Below, piece after piece: positions 32,497-57,000 of a stretch of 64,000 nt of DNA. The notes beneath the pieces were generated by a model. It made no database searches. It worked only from the letters and a program-made list of their open reading frames with translations, and had not been told where the DNA came from. Positions within the stretch are counted from its first letter, which is position 1. Each line of letters starts with the position of its first letter. The stretch is from Tubulanus polymorphus (Eukaryota > Nemertea > Palaeonemertea > Tubulaniformes > Tubulanidae), in assembly GCF_964204645.1 (NCBI RefSeq), contig NC_134034.1, forward strand, positions 12,591,962 through 12,655,961, written 5' to 3'. A program made the translations under genes and the position numbers.

Positions 32497-33192
32497 AGGC
32501 TCTACAGGAGGACTAGGTTCGGCAGGAGGACTAGGTTCGGCAGGAGGACTGTAGGTTCGGCAGGAGGACTAGGTTCTACAGGAGGACTGTAGGTACTACA
32601 GGAGGACTGTAGGTTCTACAGGAGGACTGTAGGTTCGGCAGGAGGACTAGGTTCTACAGGAGGACTAGGTTCTACAGGAGGACTGTAGGTACTACAGGAG
32701 GACTGTAGGTTCTACAGGAGGACTGTAGGTTCTACAGGAGGACTGTAGGTTCGGCAGGAGGACTAGGTTCTACAGGAGGACTGTAGGTACTACAGGAGGA
32801 CTGTAGGTTCCACAGAAGGACTGTAGGCTCCACAGGAGGACTGTAGGCTCCACAGGAGGACTGTAGGCTCCACGGGAGGACTGTAGGTTTTACAGGAGGA
32901 CAGTAGGTTCTACAGGAGGACTGTAGGTTGTATAGGATTAGGAGGACTGTAGGTTGTATAGGATTAGGAGGACTGTAGGTTGTATAGGATTAGGAGGACT
33001 GTAGGTTGTATAGGATTAGGAGGACTGTAGGTTGTATAGGATTAGGAGGACTGTAGGTTGTATAGGATTAGGAGGACTGTAGGTTGTATAGGATTAGGAG
33101 GACTGTAGGTTGTATAGGATTAGGAGGACTGTAGGTTGTATAGGATTAGGAGGACTGTAGGTTGTATAGGATTAGGAGGACTGTAGGTTGTA
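32497..33192. repeat. Minisatellite that changes unit from about 20 to 26 bp
   Basis: The left part repeats AGGAGGACTGTAGGTTCTAC with variants (CGGC, CCAC). From about 32920 the unit becomes 26 bp, GTAGGTTGTATAGGATTA plus GGAGGACT, very uniform for about ten copies. It lies about 310 bases after the candidate exon at 32072-32185. Confidence 0.92.
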
Positions 33193-47326: not shown

Positions 47327-47440
47327 ATGGCGCAGGAATACATCAAACGTAAACTCGAACGAAAGCGTAGTCGGGTTTTAGTCGAAATGAAACAGAAGTT
47401 TGGAAGCACTGATTGGTTAGAATGCGACCTGATGGATCAG
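47327..47440 (+). CDS. NOSTRIN: Candidate alternative first coding exon 6 of NOSTRIN (GC donor)
   Basis: 38 codons (MAQEYIKRKLERKRSRVL ... CDLMDQ) from an ATG in strong context (AAAATGG). It ends in phase 0 at CAG followed by GCAAGT, which is the ideal GC-AG donor. Strongly basic, helical in appearance. It is the first exon nearest the body of the gene and may be the main one. Confidence 0.55.
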
Positions 47441-48041
47441 GCAAGTTCTCGGATTCACTGATGAGTTTGACGGGACTTTGAGTTCGGTGTTCAACTTGTT
47501 TGTACCGATAGGAGAAAATGTCCAATTGGACGTAAACACAATTCAAAGGTTCCGTTTTTCCTACGTGCATCAACGATTTCCGATCTCTTTTGACTGATAC
47601 CAGGGGTCGGGGGGGGGCTTTTGGGGTAGATTATTATTTGTAATTTACAGTAAATTGATGAGAATGGAATGAAAACTCACAAACTATAGCGGGTTTTAAT
47701 CTGACTAATATCTATTTTCCACACCTGAGGAGGTACAGGGGGGGGGGTTATTCCTATTCTGCTATGAATCAAGAATGAATTAAATCTAAAAGGTTTTTGT
47801 TCATAAGTCGCATGTTTTGTTGTTTTTACTGTTGTTTCTTAAAGTCGTTTCTTCCCTTTGATTTTAATGTTGTTGAATATGAACTGATAGTTTTTTTTTT
47901 TCAGAGAGAACTGAAAAACTTGAAAGCCAAACACGTTTATAAACGTACAAACTTTATTTTCGAGAAAAGCGCTCTAAATGTTTTGATACGAAAAAGACTT
48001 CACTGAACGCGTTACGAATGAATTGTTTATTTTTATTTCAG

Positions 48042-51000
48042 GGTTTAAACGGATTCGATGAATTGCGAAGGTATATCAAATCCGGGAATGAATTCTGTAA
48101 AGAGGTGTCCGCTATTATGCAGGACAGGTAAAAACTATATTTTATTTCAACTCTCGAACTCAAACTTGGGATAAACTGTCACTCAAAATTTCACGCGGAA
48201 CTTAACTCACAGCTATGGAGCCCGCTGATCGGACCGTGACCTGAGTCCATTTTCGATAGGTTACCCGCAGTGCTACTGTGGCAGTTGAGGACTCCATGTC
48301 TTGTGGCAGGCGAGGAAAAGGGCAGGGGCTGTCGGTTACAGATAACCAGCAGATAAATACCGTAGTAACAATGAACTTTTAATTGTCACTGTCAACTATC
48401 CACCGGTCGACTCTGACCATCTTTTGAGCAACTGCAGCCCCTGCCTGTTCTATAGGTTATAACAATAATATTTGGAAAAATGGCACTCCTGCTAAATACG
48501 CCCTGCCAAACCGGCTGCCTGGTCTACAAAACCATCACCTGCATTACACTTGGCCTGAATCAATTTTCAATTGGAAATTTCACTAAACGTGTTTCACCTT
48601 ACAATGACTGAAGTTCTACCTCACGACTCTAGAACCGTTTCCTATAATGTTGTGATTGTGTCGTTGATTTTTTTTTTCAGGTCGGAAATCGAATTGAATT
48701 ACGCCAAAAATTTATCAAGATTGAGCTCAAAACTGCAGAAATTAGCGGCAACATGTATCGGGTAAGAGATATAGAGGGGGGTTGATGTTTTATCGGGTAA
48801 GAGATATAGAGGGGGGTTGATGTTTTATCGGGTAGGAGATATAGAGGGGGGTTGATGTTTTATCGGGTAAGAGATATAGAGGGGGGTTGATGTTTTATCG
48901 GGTAGGGGATATAGAGGGGGGTTGATGTTTTATCGGGTAAGAGATATAGAGGGGGGTTGATGTTTTATCGGGTAAGAGATATAGAGGGGGTTTGATGTTT
49001 TATCGGGTAAGAGATATAGAGGGGGTTGATGTTTTATCGGGTAGGAGATATAGAGGGGGGTTGATGTTTTATCGGGTAAGAGATATAGAGGGGGTTCATG
49101 TTTTATCGGGTAGGGGATATAGAGGGGGGTTGATGTTTTATCGGGTAAGAGATATAGAGGGGGTTTGATGTTTTATCGGGTAAGAGATATAGAGGGGGTT
49201 GATATTTTATCGAGTAGGAGATATAGAGGGGGGTTGATGTTTTATCGGGTAAGAGATATAGAGGGGGGTTGATGTTTTATCGGGTAGGAGATATAGAGGG
49301 GGGTTGATGTTTTATCGGGTAAGAGATATAGAGGGGGGTTGATGTTTTATCGGGTAGGGGATATAGAGGGGGGTTGATGTTTTATCGGGTAAGAGATATA
49401 GAGGGGGGTTGATGTTTTATCGGGTAAGAGATATAGAGGGGGTTTGATGTTTTATCGGGTAAGAGATATAGAGGGGGTTGATGTTTTATCGGGTAGGAGA
49501 TATAGAGGGGGGTTGATGTTTTATCGGGTAAGAGATATAGAGGGGGTTCATGTTTTATCGGGTAGGGGATATAGAGGGGGGTTGATGTTTTATCGGGTAA
49601 GAGATATAGAGGGGGGTTGATGTTTTATCGGGTAAGAGATATAGAGGGGGTTTGATGTTTTATCGGGTAAGAGATATAGAGGGGGTTGATGTTTTATCGA
49701 GTAGGAGATATAGAGGGGGGTTGATGTTTTATCAGGTAAGAGATATAGAGGGGGGTTGATGTTTTATCGGGTAGGAGATATAGAGGGGGGTTGATGTTTT
49801 ATCGGGTAAGAGATATAGAGGGGGGTTAATGTTTTATCGGGTAAGAGATATAGAGGGGGTTGATGTTTTATCGGGTAAGAGATATAGAGGGGGGTTAATG
49901 TTTTATCGGGTAAGAGATATAGAGGGGGTTTGATGTTTTATCGGGTAGGGGATATAGAGGGGGGTTGATGTTTTATCGGGTAAGAGATATAGAGGGGGTT
50001 TGATGTTTTATCGGGTAAGAGATATAGAGGGGTTGATGTTTTATCGGGTAGGAGATATAGAGGGGGGTTGATGTTTTATCGGGTAAGAGATATAGAGGGG
50101 GGTTGATGTTTTATCGGGTAAGAGATATAGAGGGGGTTGATGTTTTATCGGGTAAGAGATAGAGAGGGGGGTTGATGTTTTATCGGGTAAGAGATATAGA
50201 GGGGGGTTGATGTTTTATCGGGTAAGAGATAGAGAGGGGGTTGATGTTTTATCGGGTAAGAGATATAGATGGGGGTTGATCTTTTATCGGGTAAGAGATA
50301 AAGAGGGGGGTTGATGTTTTATCGGGTAAGAGATATAGATGGGGGTTGATTGATGTTGTTTTATTGGGTAAGCGGTAGAGAGGGGGGTTGATGTTTTATC
50401 GGGTAAGAGATATAGAGGGGGGTTGATGTTTTATCGGGTAAGAGATATAGAGGGGGGTTGATGTTTTATCGGGTAAGAGATATAGAGGGGGTTTGATGTT
50501 TTATCGGGTAGGGGATATAGAGGGGGGTTGATGTTTTATCGGGTAAGAGATATAGAGGGGGTTTGATGTTTTATCGGGTAAGAGATATAGAGGGGTTGAT
50601 GTTTTATCGGGTAGGAGATATAGAGGGGGGTTGATGTTTTATCGGGTAAGAGATATAGAGGGGGGTTGATGTTTTATCGGGTAAGAGATATAGAGGGGGT
50701 TGATGTTTTATCGGGTAAGAGATAGAGAGGGGGGTTGATGTTTTATCGGGTAAGAGATATAGAGGGGGGTTGATGTTTTATCGGGTAAGAGATATAGAGG
50801 GGGTTGATGTTTTATCGGGTAAGAGATATAGATGGGGGTTGATCTTTTATCGGGTAAGACGGGATGAGAGAGAGGGGTGGGTGATGTTTTATCGGGTAAG
50901 AGATATAGAGGGGGGTTGATGTTTTATCGGGTAGGAGATAAAGAGGGGGGTTGATGTTTTATCGGGTAAGAGATATAGATGGGGGTTGATTGATGTTGTT

Positions 51001-54000
51001 TTATTGGGTAAGCGGTAGAGAGGGGGGTTGATGTTTTATCGGGTAAGAGATATAGAGGGGGGTTGATGTTTTATCGGGTAAGAGATATAGAGGGGGTTGA
51101 TGTTTTATCGGGTAAGAGTTAGAGAGGGGGGTTGATGTTTTATCGGGTAAGAGATAGAGAGGGGGGTTGATGTTTTATCGGGTAAGAGATAGAGAGGGGG
51201 GTTGATGTTTTATCGGGTAAGAGATATAGAGGGGGGTTGATGTTTTATCGGGTAGGAGATATAGAGGGGGGTTGATGTTTTATCGGGTAAGAGATAGAGA
51301 GGGGGTTGATGTTTTATCTGGTAAGAGATATAGAGGGGGTTGATGTTTTTTCGGCTAAGAGATATAGAGGGGGGTTGATCTTTTATCGGGTAAGAGATAA
51401 AGAGGGGGGTTGATGTTTTATCGGGTAAGACGGGATGAGAGAGAGGGGTGGGTGATGTTTTATTCATAGTGCGCGTCTAATAGTAAAACCTGTCTAATAG
51501 AGTTGTAGTAAAATCATGTTTCATCCTACGCAGTCTAGTAGTAGTCTACCCCTGGCGAGTGATGTTTACCTCCTACTCTCTTCGATTGTTGTCGTCGGAA
51601 TCATTGACAAAATATATTTTCCAAAATCTTTGATGTTCTCGTAAACTGTATTTTTACTATCGTCCAAAACTCCTCTCTCCCTCTCTCCTCTCTCCCTCTC
51701 TCCTCTCTCCTCTCTCCTCTCTACTCTCTCCCACTCTCCCTCTACTCTACTCTCTCTTTCTCTCCTCTCTCCTCTCCTCTATCTCCGGTCTCCTCTCTCC
51801 CTCTCTCACTTCTCTCTATTCACAGCCACTTTGTTGGATAAATATTTTCTCAACCCACATCAATGCTTTCATGAATTCTGCTCTAGTTTTTAACGACCTA
51901 CTTCTAATTGTGTCGATTTTAACTATCAAGAGTAAAAACAATCCAATAACTGCCCATATGAGCCCTACACCCCGGGGAGTTAGCAGTGTGAGCCCTACGC
52001 TCCTTCGGGGCGCTTGTCGGTCGTGGTTGGATTTAATGCTCCGACAAACGGTTCCCCTCCAAATCTTATCATCTCGTTATCTCTGGTTACCGCGGCTACG
52101 ACGAACAATGTCGTCGACCCGTTTTAATTTTCCGCACGTTTCTATCGTATTTCAGCACGATGGCTGGTGCATGGGTTGCCGTGGCAACAGAAATGGAAGC
52201 CGAGGCAGAATTGCACAGGTTCGTAGATCTAAATAAAACCGTAGTAATTCGTCTGCTCGTCTGCTAGAACTGCGTCTGCTAGAGCTGCGTCTGCTCCAGT
52301 GTGTCATCGTCGTTGTTGTGCACTTATTTTTAGCAGACGGATATTTTAATGATGAGGGCGTGAGACGTATTACGTAATCAGTTGTGTCGTCGCGACGACG
52401 TGTGCATGTCACTTGTATCACTACTCGCGCTGTATATGAATACTTCTAGAATCAACCAGAACTCTGAATCTCGCACCGTTACAAATAACAAATTATTACA
52501 CATTTGTAAATTGAAATCGAAATGAATGATTAAAACCAGAAATACTAAAATGATGACTGCATTTTCTGATTTGAGCTACTGCAGCAGGGGGGGTTTCGGG
52601 TCGCGACCCCCCTCCCCACCTGCTCAGCTACCAAAAAATTTTAAAAATTTGTTTTCGTGAAGGAATCTAAGCGCTTACTCAAGATAAAGTGGGCTAACAG
52701 TAACAAAAACCGGTACCATGTCATCTTATGTTTGGCCAAACAATATGCCGTATAGGCCCCCTATCTTAGCAGGCGGTTTAACATTAACATTCTTTATTAA
52801 CACCCTCCTTGATCGGCGCTGGTGCAGATCTGGTTCAATGAACCCAAATATGAGAAACGACGATAAACTATTGAGTCATTAGTTGATCATATTTCTTCAT
52901 AATGTTTGTATTGATTATTGATTTCAGGACGTTGTGTTCGGCGTTATTAGAAGATATTAATAAACCTTTAAAAACGCTGACGGAACACGTGCATAAAAGT
53001 CGCAAACCGGTAAGAGTACGAACGACCCTGAATTCACTATTCTACCTCGCGCCGCGATGATTTACGTTTTAAACGTTTGAATTTAACGGTTGTTTTTCAG
53101 ATCGAGGCAGCAGTCGATAAATCAATCAAAAATTTACTAGAAAAACGAAACGAGGAAGGAAAGGTAAACAATCGAGCATTCTGGGTAACAACTGCGTGTA
53201 TTGATATGAATTCTGGGTAATCGTGCCTTATGAACCCTGGGTAATCATACCTCAAGAATTCTGGGTAACTTTCAACAAGGACAATAGGAATTCTGGGTAA
53301 ATATACCTTTGAGGAATCCTGGGTAATTAAATCACAGGAATTGTGGGTAACTATTCCGCTTCGACATCAGGGCTCGGTTTCATAGACTGAGTATCAAAGT
53401 TATCCCTAAGGGTAACTCCTAAATCTGGTTAACGACCACCATAGTAACAATGAGAAACCATGGTTATAACTGACAAATCTCAAAATGTTCCCAGGGATTT
53501 TTTCGGTTCCACATATAAGAAACCCAGCCCAGGGTCCAGTTTCATGAAAAAGTTTAAGCCTAAAACGGTTAAGTTTGAATTGTTGTCCTCATCGAAAACA
53601 CGAAGTAACCAATAGCAATTAAACCAAAAATTTGAGTTTAACTTGTTCGTGAAACTGGGCCCTGGGGCCAGTTGCACAGTCGTGACTTAAGTCAAAAAGT
53701 GTTCTTAAATCTTAAGACTTGTCTTAAGTTGTTCGATTGGTTATAGAACTTAGTTGGTCTTAGACTGGTCTTAAGTCTAAGCCATGACTATGCAACCGAC
53801 CCCAGGAGTTCAGGGAAATTATTCTAAGAATGATGGGTAATAAGACAGTAGGAATGATGGTTAATTCGTATTGTTTGTGTTTGTAGTGTAAAAAGAATGC
53901 GTTCACTCTGGCGCGAGATAGCGAAAAAATCATGGACCAGTTAACGGACGCGAAGGCCGGTAAAGGTCGGTTCGGAGAGAAGGATATATCGAAACTGGAG

Positions 54001-57000
54001 AAAAAGAGTAAACAATTAGAATCGGGAGCGCGTAAAGCTGATAAAGAATATCACGATCATTGCCTTAAAGCGGAAGCTGCCAGACAAGAGTGGGAGGGAT
54101 CTGTGTATAAGGTACGTGACACCAGGGGGAGCTGTCGTCGTCATACCGACCGGTCAACTGACGGTATTGTTGTATATTGTAGGGTTGTACTCAATTACAG
54201 TCGTTAGAGGAGGAACGTTTGAGTCAACTTCACGAAGTGTTAAATAAATATAGTAACCATTTATCTGTGATAGGTCCTAAACGCATCAAGGTACGTCTAA
54301 CCCCGGTATGCTCTGGTCGATCAAGTGCGGATTTAGAGGGTGGTCTCGGGGGTGCGGGGACCCACTGAGGTTGATCCTCATGATCGTTAAAACCTTCCAA
54401 TTTTACACACATCCTCTCGGAATTTGTATCTTTAAGGATGTATTTCCGGGTAGGACCCCGCTAGTGGCCGTTGCCCTGGGTGCTGTACCCGAGAATTACC
54501 TTTTCTTTTCATCTGGAACCCGGCCTCCCAATCTTCCTCCCCTTATTACCGGGGTACCTTTCAAAATTGTCATTTTCATCTGGAACCCGGTCTAGCAATT
54601 TACCTCGATAAACCCCTGGCCCCTCTCCCCTGCCTGCTCCCCTCCCGGCTGAATTCATCGTTTGAATATTGTATTTATAGAGCGTCGAGCGAATGGAAGA
54701 GTCGATAATGATTGTAGATATGAGCGCCGATCTACAAGCCGTCGTCGAACAAAAAGGAACCGGTCAAAACCAACCTGAACAATTACTGTTCGAATGCTAT
54801 GTACGTTGAAACAGCTCGTTTAAACTCATCTCTCAAATCTCATATCGTAAACTGCTCGTTTGAACTCATCTCTCAAATCTCATATCGTAAACTGCTCGTT
54901 TGAACTCATCTCTCAAATCTCATATCGTAAACTGCTCGTTTGAACTCATCTCTCAAATCTCATATCGTAAACTGCTCGTTTGAACTCATCTCTCAAATCT
55001 CATATCGTAAACAGCTCGTTAAAACTCATATCTCAAATCTCATATCATAAACAGCTCGTTTAAACTCATATCTCAAATCTCATATCATAAACAGCTCGTT
55101 TAAACTCATATCTCAAATCTCATATCGTAAACAGCTCGTTAAAACTCATATCTCAAATCTCATATCGTAAACAGTTCGTTTAACAAACTCATCTCTAAAA
55201 TCTCATATCGTAAACAGTTTGTTTAAACTCATCTCTCAAATCTCATATCGTAAACAGTTCGTTTAAACTCATCTCTCAAATCTCATATCATAAACAGCTC
55301 GTTTAAACTCATCTCTCAAATCTCATATCGTAAACAGTTCGTTAAAACTCATCTCTCAAATCTCATATCGTAAACAGCTCGTTTTAAAATCATCTCTTAA
55401 ATCTCATATTGTAAACAGTTTGTTTATTCTCAAATCTCATATCGCAGAATCGAATAATTTGATGCGTTGTTGTCACGATTACAGGCAGAAGATCTCAACA
55501 ATACGATGAACCGTGAACGGAGGTTACATTGGTTACGCAACGCGCTTTATTTCCTAGAACAAGACATGGATATAGAAAAGAAAGGAAGAGAAGGTGAGTC
55601 CGATATTAATCGCTATTTCATTATCGGTCGAAATTATCATGAAAATTTATAAATTAGATTTGACTAAACATTTTTAGAACCAATTTTTGGCATTTCTTTA
55701 ATCGGCAATAATTTGTTACCTTAAATCTGCTCATGAAAAAGTAATTTCTGTAGTTTCAGTTGTGAATTCAGAATCTAAAATCATTGGGACATTGAAGCTA
55801 ATTCAACTTTAAATTTAAGCCCACGACTGTAGAATTGGATCCACAACTGCAGAACTGGATCCACAACTGCAGAACTGGATCTCCAGCTGTGGAGCTCATT
55901 CCACAACTCTGGAACTGGGACCACAACTGCAGAACTGGATCCACAATTGTAGAACTTGTTCCACAACTGCGGAACTGGATCCATGACTGTAGAACTGTAT
56001 CCATAGCTATGGAGCTTGTTCCAAAACCCTGAAACTGGATCCCCAGCTGTGGAGCTCGTTCCACAACTCTGGAACTGTGGAACTGGGTTTACAATTGCAG
56101 AACTGGGTCCACAACTCTGGAACTGGGACCACAACTGTGGAACTGGTTCCACAACTATAGAACTGGATCCACAACTGCAGAACTGGATCCACAACTGTGG
56201 AACTGGGTCCACTACTCTGGAACTGGATCCATAACTGCGTCTTATTCTGTGTCGTCTGAATGTTGTATGCATAAATATATCATAGTTTAGATATTTATAG
56301 TAACGAGGCTTAAATAGATGTTTTCTTTTTAAATTTTCTCCATTTTTTGTAATAAATCGTTCAATTTCAGCGATAATCACGCAGCATATAGAAACTGATT
56401 GTCATCAAACCGATCCTCAAAACGATGACGATGACGATGATCTTTATATTAATTATAGTAATACCAATGGTCTACGATATCTTATTTCACTTCCTTTTAT
56501 TTCGGTTTTTCTTCAGAAATTTCAGAAATTGCGGTAATTTTTAGGGATATGTTTTTCGCTTAAACGAATTGCCATGAAAAGAAAAATTTGCGCTAAAATA
56601 GTTTGAAGATTTTTTTTTTCGGCTTGACTCGCAATTTACAAATGCCACAAGTTTAAATTCAGCGCTTGCTTTAATTTAAAACTCAATAAGGAACATACAA
56701 ATGTAACTCAAGAATTTGAAGGTCTATAAAGATTTATAAGATGATTTATTTTTGATTATGAAAATTGAAGTAACTAATCATGACTAAACCTTTTATAAAC
56801 TGAGCCCGTGGTCTAGGATACAATTGCGCACAGTTCTGTCAGTTAACATTTGACTCTGGTCGTTATCAACTCAAATAAAGTCAAATTTAACTGTCAACTG
56901 TGGAGCTGGATGTAATTTTGATACAAGATATATTTAGACAGATTTTGATTGAGCGATTATGGAATATCGATTCCGGATTACAAACTCTCTACCGGCCGCT

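Follow-up and report, generated by a model that had tools for sequence, protein, structure and literature searches.

A 35-bp minisatellite spanning the 5′ splice site of an exon in a NOSTRIN-like gene of Tubulanus polymorphus

The 64,000-nucleotide stretch of contig NC_134034.1 from the nemertean Tubulanus polymorphus analysed here (positions 12,591,962 to 12,655,961; the window) contains a NOSTRIN-like gene in which a 35-bp minisatellite spans the 5′ splice site (donor) of an 81-nt exon and repeats it along the following intron, 76 of the 77 units carrying GT. The array is striking in scale and is a good natural test of donor choice. It is probably a minisatellite of the type known in amphioxus as a mirage, born across the splice junction and tolerated as a largely neutral tract, with the first donor used and mis-spliced RNA destroyed. 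The exon, its donor and the array are located in the window as follows.

48681..48761, + strand: 81-nt F-BAR exon; the first repeat unit opens with its six 3′-terminal bases, TATCGG (homology and frame)
48759..48767, + strand: authentic donor CGG/GTAAGA, with the exon end at 48761 (score; junction frame)
48756..51465, + strand: 35-bp minisatellite spanning the 5′ splice site, 77 units, 76 with GT (Tandem Repeats Finder and manual unit dissection)

Structure and origin of the array

Tandem Repeats Finder reported a period of 35, 76.3 copies and 92% matches at 48756-51430. Manual dissection extended the units to 51465, giving 76 units with an intact GT and one, at 51354, with GCTAAG. An earlier note, made from the sequence alone, had described a 35-bp unit starting at the exon-intron border, and such an array is indeed present; the multiplied donor that it placed at 48755..51465 in about 75 copies is real, but its start was refined to 48756 and its size to 77 units. 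The array makes up approximately 80% of the 3394-bp intron. As the note had also proposed, the unit includes the last six exon bases together with the donor, TATCGG/GTAAG (GTAAGAG), and unit 1, which contains the authentic donor, is identical over 35 bp to unit 2 and to the consensus.

The 13-base junction TATCGGGTAAGAG was found in 53 of the 77 units by exact count, in line with the proposal that most copies rebuild the authentic site over at least this length, and TATCGGGTAAGA and TATCGGGTAAGAGATATAGAG have 55 and 40 exact copies in the array, respectively, the authentic site being included in each of the three counts. None of these three words has an exact copy outside the array on the + strand of the window. 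The authentic 9-base donor CGGGTAAGA is kept in 55 of the 77 units. The other 21 GT-bearing donors consist of weaker-scored variants (CGGGTAGGA in nine units, CGGGTAGGG in six, CGAGTAGGA and TGGGTAAGC in two each), one variant with a score about equal to that of the authentic donor (CTGGTAAGA), and one with a stronger score (CAGGTAAGA). Sequence comparison of 76 units gave 22 distinct types, and unit-to-unit identity peaks at lags of 13 and 16 units; such peaks, together with few distinct units, are as expected from block duplication.

The array also contains 73 runs of at least five G, and RNA folding of its first five units gave a z of -2.2. These G runs and the 76 GT-bearing donor copies would suit a sink for the U1 small nuclear ribonucleoprotein (snRNP), as suggested in the earlier note, or a platform in cis on which U1 shields the intron from premature polyadenylation, but we regard both roles as very improbable. 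U1 is far more abundant than the transcripts of one gene, so that a sink is unlikely, and neither AATAAA nor ATTAAA was found when both were looked for in the 3394-bp intron, so that it holds no polyadenylation signal for the cis (telescripting) role.

Exact words from the arrays were searched for in the assembly (267,791,593 bases in 77 contigs), and the resulting counts are lower bounds. The exact 24-mer TTTATCGGGTAAGAGATATAGAGG matched the 268-Mb assembly at least 39 times in forward orientation, always within the 48756-51465 array, with no reverse match and none in the reversed control. Since all 35 bp of unit 1, including six coding bases, agree with the consensus, and TTTATCGGGTAAGAGATATAGAGG was matched only in the array, the unit was most likely born from this exon border. 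The array probably arose at this place, its units being specific to it for the exact words tried. Insertion of a dispersed repeat or mobile element beside the exon would find a parallel in other families that are dispersed in the region, for example a 20-bp unit present at several places. Such an origin is hardly credible here, given that the one exact 24-mer tested was matched in the assembly only in this array and that six exon bases belong to the unit.

Host gene, exon border and reading frame

Exons were predicted in a 256-kb region (C10:12540001-12796000) comprising the window and 20 neighbouring stretches (L009-L028), using a home-made exon finder seeded by long open reading frames, with splice-site frequencies entered by hand. 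The finder yielded 169 exons, or 170 after hand correction of a misplaced border at 54800 and of the missed exon 52156-52218; for 48681-48761 its borders were right and its frame was wrong. The remaining exons of the NOSTRIN-like gene are listed below.

48042..48127, + strand: NOSTRIN-like F-BAR exon preceding the array exon (in-frame spliced translation; FCH domain match)
52156..52218, + strand: next exon, whose acceptor pairs with the authentic donor (in-frame splice inside the FCH match; hand-added)
52928-53009, 53101-53163, 53887-54111, 54183-54290, 54681-54800 and 55485-55593, + strand: further exons of the gene (translations and splice signals; F-BAR and TOCA-family HR1 matches)

Spliced from 48042 onward, the exons keep an open frame through the F-BAR region, and the junction CIG/TMAGAW unites 48681-48761 with 52156-52218 in frame. 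The 385-residue product, in which two borders were hand-mended, matched FCH in Pfam (E 4e-17; residues 4-77, profile positions 1-77 of 78) and TOCA-family HR1 (E 3e-13), and its F-BAR structure matches were to PSTPIP1 (E 6e-17), PACSIN and others. We named the gene NOSTRIN-like from the domain order, FCH/F-BAR followed by HR1; none of the matches carried the name NOSTRIN, and the name rests partly on the human NOSTRIN protein, which we take to have this F-BAR/HR1 order. The earlier assignment of 48681-48761 to a NOSTRIN-type exon agrees with both the FCH/F-BAR homology and the frame. Were the border misplaced, with the true exon end elsewhere, the array would be an ordinary intronic repeat. 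The border was predicted from sequence and the finder had set this exon in another frame, but the FCH match and the F-BAR structure alignments run across the 48761/52156 junction and the frame joins exactly, and we give a misplaced border scarcely any weight.

The authentic donor outscores 75% of the predicted-exon donors in the region, and the 81-nt exon has a strong acceptor at its upstream border (exon finder score 15.6). The junction reads ATC-GG/G-TAA in the F-BAR frame, and all 75 downstream donor choices lead to a stop directly after ATC-GGG, which confirms the in-frame stop pointed out in the earlier note. This immediate TAA is no special design, because GTAAG in that codon phase contains TAA; in the exon-finder frames, a stop follows within two codons for 20 of the 34 donors predicted in this phase across the 256 kb.

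Two further observations concern the same gene. CAG/GCAAGT at 47436-47444, after an ATG-led open stretch at 47328, may mark a GC-AG intron. An array of 15 copies of 40 bp (54809..55426, + strand) begins 8 bp past the exon end at 54800 and nearly fills the intron; it has no donor inside and is a flush intron array, distinct from the splice-site arrays.

Splice-site arrays and array starts in the surrounding 256 kb

Tandem repeats make up 16% of the 256-kb region. Recurrence of splice sites was scored by comparing 22 bases round each donor with the 3.5 kb downstream, and 22 bases round each acceptor with the 3.5 kb upstream, at up to 3 mismatches. Donor segments recurred at least once in 4 of 170 exons and at least twice in one, the NOSTRIN-like exon, which had 72 recurrences. 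Acceptor segments likewise recurred at least once in 4 of 170 exons, and at least twice in two (20 and 11 recurrences). In the controls, exon-centre segments recurred at least once in 2 exons downstream and 2 upstream, and reversed segments in 0 and 0. As single recurrences were no better than the controls, weight is given to the three multiple cases alone. By a very rough extrapolation, three cases in 256 kb would correspond to hundreds or more across the genome. Those at acceptors are the following.

L026:2406-3551 (C10:12768406-12769551): 55-bp array, about 21 units, in which the 3′ splice site of a DHX8 exon is repeated, adding 20 acceptor copies to the one at L026:3543 (C10:12769543)
L026:5803-6301 (C10:12771803-12772301): 43-bp array, about 12 units, in which the 3′ splice site of a second DHX8 exon is repeated, adding 11 acceptor copies to the one at L026:6290 (C10:12772290)

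Both arrays lie in one gene, the exons of which match solved human DHX8 with E values of 7e-19 for the first and 1e-32 for the second; a Pfam search with these short exons gave no match. The 55-bp unit comprises TTGATTGGTTGTTTTCTAG and the first nine exon bases, one base varying, and the 43-bp unit comprises TATTCGTGTAG and the first 12 exon bases, which are the same in the decoy consensus. In the assembly search, the tested exact words of both arrays had no match outside the array concerned. That DHX8 is a splicing helicase is probably a coincidence.

In a gene-free phase scan of 104 arrays, donor-like sites recurred on 21 array-strands. Three of these, the NOSTRIN-like array and two with related units, had the site no more than 8 bp past the array start, and the latter two have no predicted donor within 50 bp of that edge. 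Other repeats of the region include a 26-bp array at 32914-33192 (10.7 copies, 100% identity), which adjoins a 20-bp array and looks very recent; a dispersed minisatellite family with the 20-bp unit type CCAGTTCCACAGTTCTGGAC, present in both orientations in arrays at 55821-56237 and at several places in L009-L028; and two adjoining 69-bp arrays in opposite orientation (L021:8608-9204; C10:12724608-12725204).

The positions of array starts relative to splice sites were compared with 1000 shifts, using the 170 hand-corrected predicted exons of this one region. Within 50 bp of an array start there were 23 of 170 donors against a mean of 11.9, a count reached in 0 of 1000 shifts; the corresponding figures were 7 against 2.5 within 10 bp (15 of 1000 shifts) and 9 against 4.8 within 20 bp (52 of 1000 shifts). 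Acceptors showed no clear excess within 10, 20 and 50 bp (2, 7 and 14 against means of 2.5, 4.9 and 11.9; 724, 234 and 290 of 1000 shifts), and the difference between donor and acceptor counts was not significant (p 0.18, 0.80 and 0.19). The donor excess persisted with the 115 stronger exons, with the 112 stronger arrays and under array jitter of up to 1.5 kb. Most of the close arrays begin 6-13 bases past the exon end, and those that were read adjoin the donor without repeating it. With predicted exons and a single region sampled, the donor excess is a lead and not a result. A comparison sample of 50 kb from contig C3 is nearly gene-free (only 2 predicted exons, 3.4% tandem repeat) and carries no weight.

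A previous version of the test, with 169 exons, 178 array groups and 300 shifted sets, had counted 8 donors (mean 4.9) and 7 acceptors (mean 4.6) within 20 bp of an array start. Its conclusion, that arrays are not enriched at splice sites, was given up after the corrected exon list had been used.

Donor choice in the array and comparison with known systems

If the array is a tolerated, mirage-type minisatellite, its history would have begun with a tandem duplication spanning the exon/intron border of the NOSTRIN-like gene, after which slippage or unequal exchange would have enlarged it to about 77 units, nearly all with a working-looking 5′ splice site. Normally the first donor would be chosen, since pairing it with the strong acceptor upstream gives the usual 81-nt exon (exon definition, nearest donor). 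Later donors would produce longer exons with an immediate stop, and since each later copy adds this stop, such transcripts would be subject to nonsense-mediated decay. The exon-embedded copy, which both codes for protein and splices, would be limited in its drift, and the array may be homogeneous right up to the exon because this copy cannot drift freely. Tolerance of the array, use of the first donor and decay of the other products are the likeliest course. Amphioxus mirages, for which RT-PCR and Adh data suggest no disturbance of regular splicing in the cited parts of PMC3087553 and PMC3902484, support this reading. So do the identity of unit 1 with the consensus, the restriction of the tested 24-mer to this array in the assembly search, the signs of block copying, the presence of two DHX8 splice-site arrays in the same 256 kb and the high share of tandem repeats there.

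Several points weigh against it. In splicing in vitro, the intron-proximal member of a pair of equal donors is often favoured, which would favour a late copy here, and both first-donor use and the decay of other products are assumptions. No trace of selection eroding the decoys was seen in the array, as judged from the retention of GT in 76 and of CGGGTAAGA in 55 of 77 units. Changes per column were alike in the donor and the rest of the unit (2.6 versus 3.2), with few independent events left by block copying; for the same reason, the weaker G at +4 in 17 of 76 units is no test of selection. Array polarity, a rise in divergence away from the exon, was not significant (rho 0.20, p 0.09). Pure chance placement does not explain the enrichment of array starts near predicted donors. 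Finally, human IFI6 uses downstream repeat units as donors, according to the cited part of PMC4526556.

The last two points would also favour a functional, length-dependent decoy of the kind suggested in the earlier note, in which use of downstream donors rises with copy number, premature stops and decay follow, and array length tunes NOSTRIN output. The immediate stop after all 75 downstream donors and the retention of the authentic 9-base donor in most units are compatible with such a role. We nevertheless consider it unlikely, since the stop largely follows from the donor consensus in this codon phase, amphioxus mirages are reported without disturbance of splicing in the portions of PMC3087553 and PMC3902484 drawn on here, and the DHX8 acceptor arrays, being of the same kind, suggest indifference to which site gets copied. 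Equally doubtful is a broader proposal, in which the 5′ ends of introns are preferred birthplaces of minisatellites in this genome, those that include a splice site form a recurrent genome-wide class of donor and acceptor arrays, and their individually unstable copy number heritably sets the level of productive splicing by way of decoys and decay, the NOSTRIN-like array with its 77 donors being an extreme.

Arrays that copy splice sites are already known from amphioxus mirages and from one human gene, IFI6, and the earlier note, whose author knew of no described example of this form, is therefore to be corrected on this point (PMC3087553, PMC3902484 and PMC4526556, in the parts cited). In amphioxus globin genes, tandem duplications of exon/intron borders were named mirages, a term traced there to the Adh work of Canestro and colleagues in 2002 (PMC3087553). 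From the same source, as far as cited here, many mirage units carry AG/GT signals as potential cryptic sites, Adh3 data and globin RT-PCR suggest no interference with regular splicing, and copy number varies between haplotypes, with somatic instability attributed to the Adh work. PGBD5 was added as a further case, with TnC cited (PMC3902484, in part). The present array resembles these mirages (Adh, globin BflGb6/BflGb9, TnC, PGBD5), as cited, in being a minisatellite-like duplication over a 5′ or 3′ border with splice signals in many units, but has 77 units at a single donor, where the two BflGb6 haplotypes have 6 and 3 (PMC3087553, in part). Here, too, the tandem minisatellite lies in a gene, and its unit holds exon and intron bases of a real junction. 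The published mirages cited here come from cephalochordates; for the present genome, one exact let-7 word was found, which suggests a bilaterian, and COX1 and GFP-family searches gave no match, the GFP search being without a positive control.

A donor minisatellite of human IFI6 (6-16) was reportedly described by Turri in 1995. In the cited part of PMC4526556, two downstream repeat units of this gene are used as donors and three mRNAs result. As in IFI6, several repeat units carry a donor in the T. polymorphus array (76 of 77 with GT); unlike in the IFI6 isoforms, no coding sequence would be added here, as all 75 downstream choices stop at once. The array also resembles the intron-gain model outlined in PMC3087553 (in part), where a splice signal lies within the segment that is duplicated and new borders may arise from it. 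Intron gain through tandem copying of segments bearing splice sites is the subject of related literature (PMC4974935 and PMC2891723), and differs in that an existing border is multiplied here and no new intron is shown. A limited literature search found no published case with so many donors.

The array offers a natural experiment on how the spliceosome settles on a single 5′ splice site when one intron holds dozens with at least 13 bases of identity. Alleles that differ in length would bear on the rules of proximity, on exon definition and on decay as a form of quality control. Should the excess of array starts near donors persist when exon borders are taken from transcripts, one would have to ask how repeat birth is shaped by transcription or splicing. 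Together with the DHX8 acceptor arrays approximately 120-130 kb away, the NOSTRIN-like array indicates that long series of tandemly copied real splice sites can exist in conserved genes of an animal.

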